DNA of 20,408 nucleotides. Source: Gemmatimonadota bacterium (GTDB taxonomy: Bacteria; 4572-55; J002). The notes under the pieces are model-generated. The model did no database searches and was not told the origin of the DNA. It saw only the letters and a list, made by a program, of their open reading frames with translations. Position 1 is the first letter of the stretch. Each line of letters opens with the position of its first letter. Below, one piece after another: positions 1,209 through 12,265 of this stretch. A program made the translations under genes and the position numbers. The DNA lies in contig RFFQ01000196.1 in the NCBI GenBank assembly GCA_003697105.1, forward strand, positions 1 to 20,408, in the 5' to 3' direction.

Positions 1209-2558
1209 ATGCTCAAGCACTATGCCCTATTATTTATTAGCTTATTTTTAATAAGCACTCCCTTGATCTTCACAGGTTGCAGTGAAGATGAGAATGAAGA
1301 ATTTCCGGCGGCACCCCAAGAAGCGAATGCCGTTTTAACCTCTCACTTTGCTGATTTGGCGGCGGGACAGAGCTATGTTGGATTTCATACCAGTGCCGCC
1401 GCGATCGCAAATGGGAGTTATGCTTCTGATAGTCTAGCGTTGATGTTGACCTTACCCCCATTGGATAATTCGCTGACTTATATGGCATCATTCAAGACAT
1501 ATCCGGGTAGTTCTTATCCGGTATTTTTTGCGTTAGCCGGTTCGGGTAATAATGGGACATTTGTCCTTGCGGATCCTACAAATGCACTTGGTTTTGATAA
1601 TCCATTTGATGTTTATCCCACCTTTCAAATTTTGTTCACCGAAACCGAATGGGCAGAGACGGATACGGCGGCTGTTCTTCCCATAATGCTGGCTTCTTCG
1701 CTCCCGGAACCTATTCTGCCTCATATTCAGCGGTTGTTACGTTCTGAACCCAATCTCCCCGAAGCTCATGGCTTACTTCCATCGATCATGTCTGTTGCGG
1801 ATGGCGTGTTAGGGGCATCACAATTGACGGCTGCGGGGACCACGCTTGAGGAAATTCAAGGGAATGCACTTGTTGTCGGAGGTGCGTTGCAAAATTATGA
1901 GGCTTTGGCGACAGGTGCCGGTCAATTACTAGGGTTATGCGCCGCCTCAACGGCATCTTCTCAAATGATGAAATACTACGCTTCTCAAGCCATCGGCTCA
2001 TTGGAAACTGCCGGTGGACATGCGCAGGCGATAGGTGCCAAAATTCAGGAAATTCAGATGGCAACTGAGTTTGATCAAGCTCAGACCTTAGCCAATGAAT
2101 TGTTGGCGCTTAGCCAAGCTCTTCGGGCAAGTTGTTGGATGGCGTTGACAAATGCTCAGAGTATGGCACACTATCCCGTTGGGAATCCGTTACCAAAAGG
2201 ACAATTGCGGATTACCAATAACGAAATGATCCTGACATTGATTGATATGCCGGTTCTGGGTGAATTTGGGACGAATGATTCTAATCTACCGTATGGATAT
2301 GCTTATGAAGGGCTTCTGGTAAAAGGAAATGAGCACATTCTAATCGGCTATTTTGGACATTTACCCGGACAAACGTCTTCAATGGTTTGGCCCTACCGTT
2401 ACACGACATTTCCACAAGGGTTTGATCAGGTAAAAATTAATTTAGTCCGTTATGACCGGGTCATTGATCCCGAAAGTGGTGATGTGGTATATGATTATGA
2501 ATTAGATAATGATCCGGCTGCGAGCCTGCTTACGGTTATGTCTGGTGCAATTCAATAA
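1209..2558 (+). CDS. Putative lipoprotein of unknown function (first of a pair)
   Basis: I do not recognise the family. The 449-residue product has a lipoprotein signal peptide: KH, a hydrophobic stretch to about residue 22, then a lipobox-like IFTGC with Cys24. Ser at +2 would fit an outer-membrane destination if the enteric Lol rule applies. Residues about 75-147 look like a beta-rich domain (LALMLTLPPL, then YMASF and YPVFFALAG). Residues about 165-320 are Ala/Leu/Gln-rich and probably helical, with Cys244 and Cys309. Residues about 330-420 look like a second beta domain (EMILTLIDMPVL, YEGLLV, ILIGYFG). The two beta parts faintly resemble each other and, in hydrophobic pattern only, anti-sigma-K (RskA)-type domains. 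The gene follows dnaN by 62 bases and precedes a second lipoprotein gene by 26 bases. Being a lipoprotein is fairly sure; its role is unknown. Confidence 0.8.
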   Translation: MLKHYALLFISLFLISTPLIFTGCSEDENEEFPAAPQEANAVLTSHFADLAAGQSYVGFHTSAAAIANGSYASDSLALMLTLPPLDNSLTYMASFKTYPGSSYPVFFALAGSGNNGTFVLADPTNALGFDNPFDVYPTFQILFTETEWAETDTAAVLPIMLASSLPEPILPHIQRLLRSEPNLPEAHGLLPSIMSVADGVLGASQLTAAGTTLEEIQGNALVVGGALQNYEALATGAGQLLGLCAASTASSQMMKYYASQAIGSLETAGGHAQAIGAKIQEIQMATEFDQAQTLANELLALSQALRASCWMALTNAQSMAHYPVGNPLPKGQLRITNNEMILTLIDMPVLGEFGTNDSNLPYGYAYEGLLVKGNEHILIGYFGHLPGQTSSMVWPYRYTTFPQGFDQVKINLVRYDRVIDPESGDVVYDYELDNDPAASLLTVMSGAIQ

Positions 2559-2584
2559 ATAAAAAATGAAGAAAGGGTAGAAGA

Positions 2585-4192
2585 ATGCAAATATTCCTTA
2601 AACTGACTGGCATCGTGTTCATGAGTCTGTTGGTGTTGACGTTGGTCAACTGTACGGAGGATACTCCAGCTACCGATGAAAATTATCCGAAAACGGCTAC
2701 TATAGAGCCAGACTCTTTGTTGCTTGATGTAGGAGAAGTATCACCGGAATTAATGGCACATCTGTATGATGTCGATGGGAACGAGGTGACCGGTGATTGG
2801 CCCATTTATTGGTCGGTAAACCGTACTCAAGAAGATACGGCTCTGGTAGTTGAGTTGAATAGTGATAGTAATGTGGGGAATCTGAAAACATTTCGAGCGG
2901 TAAATTATGGGCTAGAGCAAATTTATGCTTCTATCGCAAAAAATCCAAACAATTCGGCTATTCGCGGTGAAGTGACCGTCTTGGTTCCCAAAGCGAGTGC
3001 CTCTCTAACAGGCACATGGGGATTATTTGAAGCCACTATTCGTCCCCAAAATTCGTCCGCGTCTGTGCATGATAGTAAACGAATACGCATCGAAATTGCT
3101 GGCAGTTTACCCGCATTAGTGGGAGATGCTTATGTTTACACCGCCTATGTTATTACTGACAATGGGCAAGTAAATGTAGGACCCCTGACACCTAATCCGG
3201 TGAATGAACAAGTCAACATCTCAATCGATTTAGGTTCTGATGTGAATTTTGCCCAAGATGCTACAGGTTTTCGCCTTACCGTTGAACGGGCGGATAATAT
3301 CCCGGCAACGTATCAAGAGGGGACGGGCATTGTCCTATTTGAAGAGTACCTACCGGCACTTGTTCCCGGGGGTGCTCTCGAAATCGTTCGTCAATTGTTA
3401 CACCCCACAGAAGGAAGCGTCGTACAGCTTCGTGATGCTTTAAACCCCATTTTGTATTACAATGCACGTATCAAAAATAGTGTGGGAGATGGTGATTTAG
3501 TTGCAAGTTACGCGGATTCGCTCTCAGATGTGCTCACACCGCTTTCAGAACAGTTTAATCAGGCAGTGCAACTGTTAGAAGACCTCCAAAATGCGGAAGA
3601 CCGGACCGATCTTATGTATAGTAACGCGCTTGTGGCGGATGGATTGTACCGGCGTTCGTTGGATTCCCTAACGGTTGCTACCAGTATTACAGAGGCATTG
3701 CAATCCACCCCGACGGATACATTGCTCATCAATCGTCTGGATGAGGTCACATCTGCCCTAGAAACGAATCTGACAGAGGGTTTCTCGAATGTTCAAACGA
3801 TGTTGACCTTGAGTGGTGTCGGTCATGAGGATTATTCACCGCAAGTACAAATTATTGAAATGACACGGTCTAATCTGAACTATACGGTTTCCAATGTGGA
3901 TTCTATTCCCTATGTTAATAACTCAAATTGGGAGTATGTTCTGTGGCTGGGTAATAACCGGATTCCATCCTATTTGCCGGTACCAAACGGTGATGATTAT
4001 ATTTTAGATACGGGTCATTATGATGGTATTAACACCCGCGAAACCTTTACCGAACCGGGAGAATCGGTTTCGGATTACCCGGATCGTCATCAATTTGTGT
4101 ATGTGACACTCCAACCGGCAACGGATTTGGAAACGTTCACAGGTATTGTTGTTGCCAAGGGTTTCCTGACATACGCGAACATTTCTCAATAA
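2585..4192 (+). CDS. Putative lipoprotein with Ig-like (Big_2-type) domain, second of a pair
   Basis: I do not recognise the full-length family. The 535-residue product has a signal peptide ending in a lipobox-like TLVNC with Cys23; Asn at -1 is unusual. Residues about 38-135 fit a bacterial Ig-like (Big_2-type) domain: LLLDVGE, then a YDVDGNEVTG turn, a WSV strand and a final GEVTVLV strand. Residues about 165-255 look like a beta domain (RIRIEIAGSLP, DAYVYTAYVI). Residues about 262-412 are probably a helical bundle. Residues about 428-530 form another beta-rich part ending in QFVYVTLQPA and GIVVAKGFL. The last three parts mirror the layout of the upstream lipoprotein, including an LPxLV...IVRQLL segment at the start of the helices. 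It is probably co-transcribed with its neighbour. A candidate terminator follows the stop codon. A surface or periplasmic role is inferred; function is unknown. Confidence 0.8.
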   Translation: MQIFLKLTGIVFMSLLVLTLVNCTEDTPATDENYPKTATIEPDSLLLDVGEVSPELMAHLYDVDGNEVTGDWPIYWSVNRTQEDTALVVELNSDSNVGNLKTFRAVNYGLEQIYASIAKNPNNSAIRGEVTVLVPKASASLTGTWGLFEATIRPQNSSASVHDSKRIRIEIAGSLPALVGDAYVYTAYVITDNGQVNVGPLTPNPVNEQVNISIDLGSDVNFAQDATGFRLTVERADNIPATYQEGTGIVLFEEYLPALVPGGALEIVRQLLHPTEGSVVQLRDALNPILYYNARIKNSVGDGDLVASYADSLSDVLTPLSEQFNQAVQLLEDLQNAEDRTDLMYSNALVADGLYRRSLDSLTVATSITEALQSTPTDTLLINRLDEVTSALETNLTEGFSNVQTMLTLSGVGHEDYSPQVQIIEMTRSNLNYTVSNVDSIPYVNNSNWEYVLWLGNNRIPSYLPVPNGDDYILDTGHYDGINTRETFTEPGESVSDYPDRHQFVYVTLQPATDLETFTGIVVAKGFLTYANISQ

Positions 4193-4214: not shown

Positions 4215-4266
4215 GAATACCAGAATCTACGACTTGAGAGTGGATTCTGGTATTCCCCTTTTATTC
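4215..4266 (+). terminator. Candidate Rho-independent terminator after the lipoprotein pair
   Basis: A perfect 13-bp inverted repeat (GAATACCAGAATC at 4215-4227, GATTCTGGTATTC at 4243-4255) encloses a 15-base loop. CCCC and a T-rich stretch follow. It starts 22 bases after the lipoprotein stop codon and about 57 bases before recF. The stem is only moderately GC-rich and the loop is long, so termination may be partial. A protein-binding or mRNA-stabilising palindrome is an alternative. Confidence 0.6.
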
Positions 4267-4312: not shown

Positions 4313-5421
4313 GTGTATTTCCGCTCCATTTCGCTGACACAATTTCGTAATTATCACACTGCCACGCTAGATTTGAGTCCCGAGGGAAATATTTTTTTTG
4401 GTACAAATGGTCAGGGAAAGACTAATTTATTAGAAGCCTTACATTGCTTGTGTGTGGGGCGCTCTCCACGCGGGGCGCGGGATACGGAGATTATTAAACA
4501 GGGCTGTGATTTTTACCGGCTTTCCGGGGTTGCATTTCGGAAAAGCGGTACCCGTCTCGATATTGAACTGAATTTTCAGAAACCCAACCGGAAATCGCTT
4601 AAAATAAATGGGCAGTCTCAAAAAGCGGTTTCAGAATTCATCGGGCAACTCTCGGTGGTGAGTGTTTCACCCGAAGATATTGCTATTACGAGTGGCAGCC
4701 CCTCATACCGGAGACGCTACCTCGATATTGCCTTGTCACAAACCCATCGATCCTATCTATCTGCCCTGCAAGAATATCAGCGGATTCTGGATCAGCGAAA
4801 TGCGATTCTCAAAGAGATTCAAATCAAGCCGGAAAAACGCCGCACGTTGCGAGACCAACTGTTAGTATGGGATCAGCAGTTTGCCCAAGCCGGAGCAACC
4901 GTGATTGAACATCGACTGAATGCCGTTGACTTTTTAAGCAAAAAAGCGCATCAGATGCACCAGTATGTCAGTGCTGATACCGAAAATTTGCAATGTCGAT
5001 ATATTCCGGCATTTTCAACAGATACAACCTCCTTAGCAGATGCGTTTTATCAAACGTTGCGAAAACAGCAAGAAAAAGATGAAGTACGTGGCTATACCAC
5101 TTTGGGACCGCATCGGGATGATTTGCGTATTACGTTGAACGGGTTCGATTTGCGGACATACGGGTCGCAAGGACAATTGCGGACGGCGTGTATCTCTTTG
5201 CGGATTGCCGAAGCGGAATGGCTCGCCGCCAAAGCACAGGAATCTCCGATCATGCTCCTCGATGAAGTTTTTGCTGAACTCGACCTGTCGCGTACCCATC
5301 AGTTGATGGAACTGTTTCAGCAGTATGGTCAAGTGTTTATTGCAACAGCACGAGAGGCAGATTTTGCGAAATGTCCCTCTTCATTCCAGACCTTTTACAT
5401 CGATCAAGGACATATCAAACC

Positions 5422-5425
<4 letters not shown>
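4313..5425 (+). CDS. recF: DNA replication and repair protein RecF
   Basis: RecF is an SMC-like ATPase that acts with RecO and RecR to load RecA at single-strand gaps. The 370-residue length is typical. The N-terminus reads YFRSISLTQFRNY, close to the family's opening LxxFRNY. The Walker A motif GTNGQGKTN is at residues 30-38, the ABC signature YGSQGQLR at 283-290, and Walker B IMLLDEVFAELD at 313-324. GPHRDD lies at 265-270. The start is GTG: an in-frame TAA 13 bases upstream rules out a longer start, and AAGG lies about 10 bases before it. The stop overlaps the next gene as ATGA, implying translational coupling to the dciA-like gene. All motifs are intact, so identity is secure. Confidence 0.97.
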
Positions 5426-7719
<2,294 letters not shown>

Positions 7720-7720
<1 letters not shown>

Positions 7721-9222
7721 TGAACGATTCTATTTTTCCGCGTGACGAACGAACACGTACAATTCTCATTGTTGATGATGAGCGCACGCTGGTTCAAATT
7801 GTCTCCAAGATGGTCGAAGGCGCGGGGTATCAAACTCTCTCCGCGAATTCCGGACCCCAAGCGCTGGCGCTCTTAGCCTCTGAGTCCGTTGACTTGGTGT
7901 TGCTGGACATCATGATGCCCGGAGTCAGTGGTTATGAGGTCTGCCGCGAAATCAAAGCGACATACCCAGATTATCTGCCGGTGATCATGGTCACTGCCAA
8001 GCGGGCGCTGGAAGATAAAGTGAGCGGCTTTGAACATGGCGCCGATGATTACGTAGTGAAGCCGTTTCATAGCACGGAACTGCTGGCACGTATTAAAGCC
8101 ATGCTCCGTATCAAAGCAATGCACGAACAACATCAACAAATGTTGAAACGGGTTTCCGCAGAAAAGAGTAAACTAAAGGCGGTCTTCAATTCCACGCGAG
8201 ATGGATTGATAACCCTTGCCGGAGACCATCCCCCGCAAGTCTCCAATGTGAATCGAATTGTTACTGAACTGTTTCATTGCAAAGCCATTGAATTGATTGG
8301 ATTACCACTTGATGATCTGATTCACCGCTGCCGGAAAACGTTTCGGGAAGGTGACGCATTGGCTACGTACTTACGCGACCCCAATCCGGGGGATGAGGTT
8401 TGCAAAGCCTCTACTATGGATCAGGTCTTTGAGGTCTCCCGGTCGCCGGTTGTCGATGCCGGGGGTGTACGGGTCGGCGAGATTATCTCGTTTCATGAAA
8501 TCACCAAATCACATCAACTGGCGGAACTTCGAGATGATGTGAGCCACATGCTGGTGCACGACTTAAAAAATCCTTTGGCGGCTATTTTGACCAGTTTGCA
8601 GGTCGTTATGAAAAGTCAAGAAAGGCAACTTGCTCCGGCGAATGTGGAGTTACTCGAATCGGCATATCACAGCGGGTTACGGTTGATGGGCATGATTGGT
8701 GATATTCTGGATGTGTACCGCTCAGATGCCTCCGCATTGCTTATCACGCCGGAGACCTTCGATCTGGTGCAACTGATTCTGGAGGCGATTGCCGAACAGC
8801 GTATTTTTTCCACAGAAAAAGAGATTACCCTAGAATTTGAACCCTTAGCGGATGTAGATGCGTCGTACCGGGTCTTGGCCGACCGGCATAAAATCTACCG
8901 CGTGTTGACCAATTTGATCGATAATGCAATCCAATTTACCCCTCGTGGGGGGATTATACGGGTTCAATTAGACCGGCTTGCGGATCAATTCCAAATTTCT
9001 GTGATCGATACCGGTGAGGGTATTCCGGCAGAATTTGTTTCCAAAGTATTTGATCGATTTTCGCAGGCAGAAGCCCGAATTCAGGGTAAAAAAATATCAA
9101 CCGGTTTGGGGTTGGCGTTCTGTAAATTAGTTGTTGAAGCACATCATGGCACCATTTCCGTACAAAGCCAACTGGGTCAGGGATCGATTTTTCGATTTAC
9201 GTTACCAATACCAACTTCTTAA
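7720..9222 (+). CDS. Soluble receiver-PAS-histidine kinase (hybrid two-component protein)
   Basis: This signalling protein of 500 residues has no membrane segment or signal peptide, so it acts in the cytoplasm. An N-terminal receiver domain spans about 14-130: acidic pair Asp19-Asp20, phospho-acceptor Asp63 in LLDIMMPG, and Lys114 in VVKPF. A helical linker leads to a PAS-like region at about 148-262, ending GEIISFHEITK. The HisKA domain has His280 in the H-box VHDLKNPL. The HATPase domain has an N-box with Asn402 (NLIDNAIQFTP), G1 box DTGEGIP at 430-436, and G2 box TGLGLAF at 461-467. All catalytic residues are present. Its first codon overlaps the gyrB stop, so it is probably translated with gyrB. 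The output partner is not in the window: no separate regulator with a DNA-binding domain is seen. Domain calls are firm; the signal sensed is unknown. Confidence 0.92.
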
Positions 9223-11128: not shown

Positions 11129-12265
11129 CTAATCTTTGGTATCATCCTGTTGGAGGGGCAACTCCAATTGATACAATTCCTGCCGGGTTTGGATGATGGC
11201 ACTCCGTTCTGATCCCGGTAAGAAGGTCACGTGGGGTGTCCGGTAGTGCCACATGTGATAGCGGATTTCATTTTCAAATATTTTGATGCCGGTACGATCA
11301 TACGCCTGAATAATCCCGCGAGTATGGCGTTCGTTTACCGGCGCATTCCCCCCTCGGTCCACATCAATTCCAACCAGAATGTAGGTGCCTGCGTCATTAA
11401 TATCTACCGAAACAAAGGTTTTTCCCGGATCACCGGACTCGGTGTGCCACACTTCCTGTGCGGATTGGGTCTCAAATAGATACAAATTCCAGCGATCTGC
11501 TAAGGCCGTGTAAGCACCATTGGCGGAGATTGAGAGGTCTCGGGGGAAAGGGTTTCGGACGGTTTTCTCGCCTAACAGTTGATCCTGTTCGTAAAAACGG
11601 ATCCGATCTTGGTTCACAAGAGCGGTATATGCCGCGGCATCCGATGTGGCAAAATATTGGCAGGTGGTGTTGATTTCCCAGACCGGATCGCCACTCGGAC
11701 AGCGGAATGCCCTCACGCCTGTTTTGGTATTTGCCACGAACGTGTCGCCATCCGGGGAAAAATCAAAGGTTTGTAAGCCGGGAAGGTCCATTTCCTCGGA
11801 TCGGCTTCCGTTACGGTTGTAAAAATAGAGTTTGGCAAATTCGGGGGATTCTACGTCGCGTAACACAGAGATCAAATATCCACTATTGGATATATAATAG
11901 GCCGTATGGTACTCATGTTCAATTTTAAACAGCGGTTTCCCACTACTTTCGTATAGCTCAAACCCGCTGATAACCATATATTCGCCTGTTCCTGCCACGA
12001 AGGTCATAATCCCGATATATTTCCCATTGGCAGAGATAATGGCACGTTGGTTTGTGTCCAAGGTGCTAAAGAGTTCGGTCTCGCGGGTTGCGGTTAAGAT
12101 GTCGATGCGTTCCGGGTAAACTACCGTGATTTCACTCTCACTAACCCCAACCGTAAAAATATCCGTTTTCTCATCGACCAATCGCTGGAGTTCTGCAGCG
12201 AAGCTTGGAAATGCCAGTATGATCCATAGGATGGCGTTTAGTAGAACATGTCGTACCCGGGTCAT
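11129..12265 (-). CDS. Secreted beta-propeller-like protein of unknown function
   Basis: I do not recognise the family. The 378-residue product starts with a Sec signal peptide: MTRVRH, then a hydrophobic core LLNAILWIILAF and an Ala-rich cleavage region SFAAE near residue 24. No lipobox is present. The mature part carries repeated units of the type S(A/P)xGxY with strand-like flanks (SANGKYIGI, FSPDGDTFVA, SISANGAYTALA, INDAGTYILVG). This suggests blades of a WD40/YVTN-like beta-propeller. I see no catalytic motif. AAGGAG lies 5 bases before the ATG, and the gene starts 28 bases after rpe, so it is probably the last gene of the long minus-strand operon. A periplasmic or secreted binding role is only an inference. 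Confidence 0.75.
   Translation of the reverse strand: MTRVRHVLLNAILWIILAFPSFAAELQRLVDEKTDIFTVGVSESEITVVYPERIDILTATRETELFSTLDTNQRAIISANGKYIGIMTFVAGTGEYMVISGFELYESSGKPLFKIEHEYHTAYYISNSGYLISVLRDVESPEFAKLYFYNRNGSRSEEMDLPGLQTFDFSPDGDTFVANTKTGVRAFRCPSGDPVWEINTTCQYFATSDAAAYTALVNQDRIRFYEQDQLLGEKTVRNPFPRDLSISANGAYTALADRWNLYLFETQSAQEVWHTESGDPGKTFVSVDINDAGTYILVGIDVDRGGNAPVNERHTRGIIQAYDRTGIKIFENEIRYHMWHYRTPHVTFLPGSERSAIIQTRQELYQLELPLQQDDTKD

Follow-up and report, generated by a model that had tools for sequence, protein, structure and literature searches.

Relatives of the RskA C-terminal domain

Lipoproteins with two to four RskA_C-type domains are widespread (L053, L059, L064-L066, L075, L076, L079); the members considered here came from about ten other genomes, and their second domain often carries a P-G-E/Q-D-F insert. 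No recurring partner was found near their genes by reading 13 fetched stretches, and no sigma factor gene was noticed beside those that were looked at. The anti-sigma-K factor RskA combines an anti-sigma N-terminal domain and a mid-protein transmembrane helix with the C-terminal domain RskA_C (PF10099).

Two adjacent genes, encoding the proteins P1 and P2, were compared with these systems. Like the lipoproteins with two to four domains (e.g. L064, L065, L066, L076, L079), P1 and P2 have two predicted beta domains and, by reading, the lipobox expected of the two-domain members. The second domain of P2 also aligns through PGE in the manner of their typical second-domain insert. However, P1 and P2 carry some 150 residues of helical structure where those lipoproteins have a linker of about 50, P2 has a probable Ig-like domain, and both proteins score far lower. 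With RskA, the beta domains share a weak profile resemblance, below the Pfam cut-off; unlike RskA, P1 and P2 have no anti-sigma N-terminal domain, a lipoprotein signal instead of the transmembrane helix and no sigma gene alongside, the neighbours being dnaN and recF. On these marks (N-terminal domain, transmembrane helix, sigma gene nearby), neither protein qualifies as an anti-sigma factor of the RskA kind.

Two lipoprotein genes between dnaN and recF

The window analysed was an entire contig (G000:C81, 20,408 bases) of a 4.2-Mb draft genome, and one further genome of the host phylum (G001) was present in the searched set. The + strand carries, in order, dnaN (sliding clamp, 13-1146; NCBIfam TIGR00663, 334 bits), P1 (1209-2558, 449 aa), P2 (2585-4192, 535 aa), recF (4313-5425; TIGR00611, 340 bits), dciA and gyrB; all features of P1 and P2 given below are on this strand. 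P1 begins 62 bases after dnaN and P2 26 bases after P1. A strong ribosome site (AAGGAGG) lies just 5' of the P1 ATG and a purine-rich stretch (GAAGAAAGGGTAGAAG) lies 5' of P2. The codon-adaptation values (P1 0.735, P2 0.725) were within the range of the neighbours (0.64-0.79), and the GC contents were 0.46 and 0.45, respectively. Because of the ribosome sites, the lipobox cysteines and the neighbour-like codon usage, both reading frames are real, ordinary genes.

The lipoprotein signals reported in the initial annotation were confirmed by sequence reading. The signal peptide of P1 (1209-1280) ends in the lipobox-like Cys24, followed by the acidic stretch SEDENEE (context IFTGC/SEDENEE), and that of P2 (2585-2653) ends in Cys23, followed by TED (TLVNC/TEDT). 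The N at position -1 of P2 and the F at position -3 of P1 are less common in a lipobox. Surface lipoproteins of Bacteroidota bear an export signal (LES) at positions +2 to +6, in the form K-(D/E)2, Q-A-(D/E)2 or S followed by an acidic run, and SDDDD is the B. fragilis form (PMC5080379). In P1 (CSEDE) and P2 (CTEDT) the cysteine is likewise followed by a polar and then an acidic residue, close to the S-acidic form (PMC5080379), though the rule is that of Bacteroidota and may not be the host's. This suggests that P1 and P2 may be exposed on the cell surface.

The position of the two genes is exceptional, as had been claimed from the window alone. In the sister genome G001, dnaA, dnaN, recF and dciA are contiguous. 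A further 40 recF loci, taken among the best recF matches and so not a random sample, were inspected: dnaN directly adjoined recF in all 24 loci with dnaN in the fetched stretch, and lay outside that stretch in the other 16. A two-gene insertion at this site is rare, since dnaN and recF are adjacent, with no P1-P2 pair between them, in G001 and in 24/24 further loci; the pair is a clear exception in an otherwise very constant gene neighbourhood. No credible match to P1 or P2 was found in G001, and no other copy in their own genome. A RecF scan of the genome contigs gave a single remote locus, which was unrelated.

Domain layout and resemblance to RskA_C-type domains

P1 and P2 gave no credible match in Pfam, NCBIfam, PHROGs, PADLOC or the PDB sequences, and their single domains gave no Pfam match of note. 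Neither the whole proteins nor the single domains reached the gathering score of RskA_C (PF10099); in their own genome, the search with this family returned only another place (E 0.3, below the cut-off), and a sequence search of the PDB returned no structure of RskA_C type. The homologue search in 386 genomes gave only noise and chance-level matches to P1 and P2; the best P1 matches (E 6e-6 in G153 and 0.004 in G225) were dismissed as noise, lying antisense to a transketolase gene and a GGDEF-EAL gene. A putative Chloroflexota family, in which LPHIRHLL would lead into a helical part, was treated as a lead only, no real sequence of it being found. The initial annotation had described a family that it did not recognise; the libraries agreed, but the beta domains most resemble RskA_C-type domains, as detailed below.

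As P1 and P2 lacked homologues, no alignment-based structure model could be made, and AlphaFold2 (AF2) was run on single sequences. P2 was modelled without confidence throughout. In P1 the model was confident only for a four-helix bundle (residues about 180-322; 1746-2174), with pLDDT of about 60-93 per block of ten. No beta domain of either protein folded confidently. Fold-search matches of the P1 bundle (designed bundles, FAT, talin) were set aside as generic four-helix bundles, which are no evidence of kinship. The helical middle of P2 (residues 263-409; 3371-3811) was placed by AF2 secondary structure only, with pLDDT of about 50 or less.

The order of a beta-rich domain, a helical part and a second beta-rich domain, previously proposed for both proteins, is recovered in outline in the low-confidence AF2 strand and helix pattern of both proteins, and in P2 two RskA_C-like matches flank the helical part. 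Support for the common architecture is moderate in P2 and weak in P1, where it comes from the C-terminal domain only. P2 would additionally start with an Ig-like domain (residues 33-137; 2681-2995): its pattern was visible by eye only, and residues 21-140 gave no Pfam match and no convincing match among PDB sequences.

Sequences for profile building were collected with a probe modelled on a lipoprotein family and composed once P1 had been read; it served solely to retrieve genuine members elsewhere. The match of the probe to P1 (E 1.3e-7) was not counted as evidence, because the probe post-dated the reading of P1. The probe collected RskA anti-sigma factors and lipoproteins with two to four RskA_C-type domains. 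Its helical part alone also matched a small secreted helical protein (L042, frame about 618-1836 in G077; HLGHALNCIEG...NF...C) that has no Pfam or NCBIfam match. Profiles were then built from real sequences alone, with 18, then 52, then 82 domains; the 52-domain profile was made from other genomes only and included no window sequence.

With the 52-domain profile, P2 scored 14.2 bits in total over two nearly full-length domains that flank the helical part: residues 171-246 (3095-3322; profile positions 8-76 of 85) and residues 435-526 (3887-4162; positions 13-83 of 85, a stretch that takes in the PGE insert). None of 5000 shuffles reached this score (E 2.5e-6 for one sequence) and P2 ranked first among 4161 decoy ORFs, although at genome scale the score is borderline. 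P1 obtained 5.7-6.8 bits on the RskA_C profiles, with 15 and 8 of 5000 shuffles as good; it ranked 5 and 3 among the 4161 decoys, and 2-3 when only the 654 with at least 250 aa were counted. These scores were carried by the weak C-terminal domain of P1 (residues 356-419; 2274-2465). The N-terminal beta-rich region of P1 (1386-1703) looked RskA_C-like by eye only, and the independent profiles gave it no support. All these significance values are somewhat flattering, since many of the decoys do not correspond to real genes and shuffling breaks up the strand alternation.

In hhalign comparisons with the 18-domain set, the scores of all four beta regions were reached by few shuffles: 0/200 for the C-terminal domain of P1, 3/200 for that of P2, and 12/200 and 8/200 for the N-terminal beta regions of P1 and P2, respectively. 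None of the control regions stood out (helical parts 66/200 and 89/200, Ig-like domain 38/200). We conclude that RskA_C-like domains are moderately supported in P2 and weakly in P1. The 18-domain profile found no place in the entire own genome at E 0.5 or below, and a blind genome-wide search would therefore miss the pair. An orphan lipoprotein with no library match can be linked to a class, if the class is first gathered from other genomes.

Origin, expression and possible role of P1 and P2

The explanation that we favour, at about an even chance, is that the pair consists of lineage-specific envelope lipoproteins that diverged from the RskA_C type and were inserted into the dnaN transcription unit. 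If so, the little-studied RskA_C-type lipoproteins would also include members whose domains are separated by a helix bundle. A less probable but serious contender is that both proteins fall outside every known family. Their RskA_C likeness would then reflect only what short beta domains with Y..W and E-P motifs generally have in common, and the two would share no more than a sandwich layout. This would account for the missing library matches, for P1 scores near those of the best decoys and for the silence of the smaller, 18-domain profile in the own genome; it fits poorly with the two nearly full-length matches in P2, which fall at both predicted places and outrank 4161 decoys, and with the helical and Ig negative controls, which do not stand out. 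That the pair is recent horizontal cargo, brought by a phage or mobile element, is very unlikely: P1-P2 is absent from G001, but its codon usage and GC resemble those of the neighbours, no integrase, tRNA or long flanking repeats were found, no PHROGs or viral contig match was credible, and plasmids gave only one partial match at E 0.5.

P1 and P2 had been interpreted as remote paralogues from an old tandem duplication, and this account fared less well. BLASTP of P1 against P2 returned nothing (best E 2.3), all pairs in domain-by-domain alignments stayed within the shuffle distribution, and the LPxxLxxxxxIxRLL landmark proposed as shared was indistinguishable from chance. The common layout and the tandem order leave duplication conceivable; direct similarity is lacking, and separate acquisition of two proteins from a widespread lipoprotein class fits equally well. 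True tandem duplication, in which one gene doubled after insertion behind dnaN, the copies diverged and P2 gained its Ig-like domain, is in our view possible but on balance doubtful: the same strand, the 26-base spacing, the same apparent domain order and the RskA_C-like domains in both proteins agree with it, while no domain pair is similar above shuffles and no further copy exists in the own genome or in G001. It concerns origin only and is compatible with a divergent RskA_C-type identity. A 20-base repeat (85% identity, 1866-1885 and 3356-3375) encodes ALVVGGALQ in P1 and ALVPGGALE in P2; the two sites do not correspond between the proteins, and the repeat is probably due to chance.

No terminator-like site was found in the dnaN-P1 or P1-P2 gap by a simple scan. 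Downstream of P2 lies a terminator-like hairpin (4215-4255; inverted repeat I3, recognised by folding) with a 16-bp stem and a 9-base loop, followed by CCCCTTTT; the scan missed it because its loop limit was 8. The hairpin and CCCCTTTT (4215-4263) fold at -27.8 kcal/mol (z -5.2), and 0/200 shuffles were as good. Co-transcription of P1 and P2 with dnaN is likely, because the gaps are short, no terminator-like site was found in them and a strong hairpin follows P2. In the mechanism that we propose for the divergent RskA_C-type lipoproteins, the pair was inserted after dnaN and probably shares the dnaN transcript or uses a promoter inside or after dnaN; its own terminator would close the unit, so that recF-dciA-gyrB would be started afresh. 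P1 and P2 would be transported to the outer membrane, where the acylated N-terminal cysteine would anchor them. Each would consist of two beta domains joined by a helix bundle rather than by the usual short linker, with a further Ig-like domain in front in P2. Most likely they would have a binding or scaffolding role in the cell envelope: the beta domains may contact ligands or partner proteins, and the helix bundle would hold them apart.

The pair is linked to replication by its address alone, and the finding by itself has no bearing on how replication works; P1 and P2 would have no direct part in it. Operon neighbours are often unrelated in function, and envelope proteins are not known to contact DnaN. 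Both points weigh against a functional link, in which lipoproteins co-expressed with the clamp would track in amount the origin-proximal gene dosage or the replication state; so does the restriction of the dnaN-P1-P2-recF arrangement to one genome. Despite the 62-base gap with no terminator-like site found and the hairpin after P2, which speak for such a link, we give it very little credence. Scarcely more can be said for a new two-gene envelope module, confined to one lineage of a sparsely sampled phylum and fixed in the dnaN-recF unit, which would tie lipoprotein supply to clamp expression.

Two other genes of the window were recorded. On the - strand, 11129-12265 encodes a secreted 378-aa protein with the look of a beta-propeller and no convincing Pfam or NCBIfam family. 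On the + strand, 7720-9222 encodes a hybrid protein (response regulator, PAS and histidine kinase); its start shares one base with the gyrB stop codon, and the gene therefore probably belongs to the gyrB unit.
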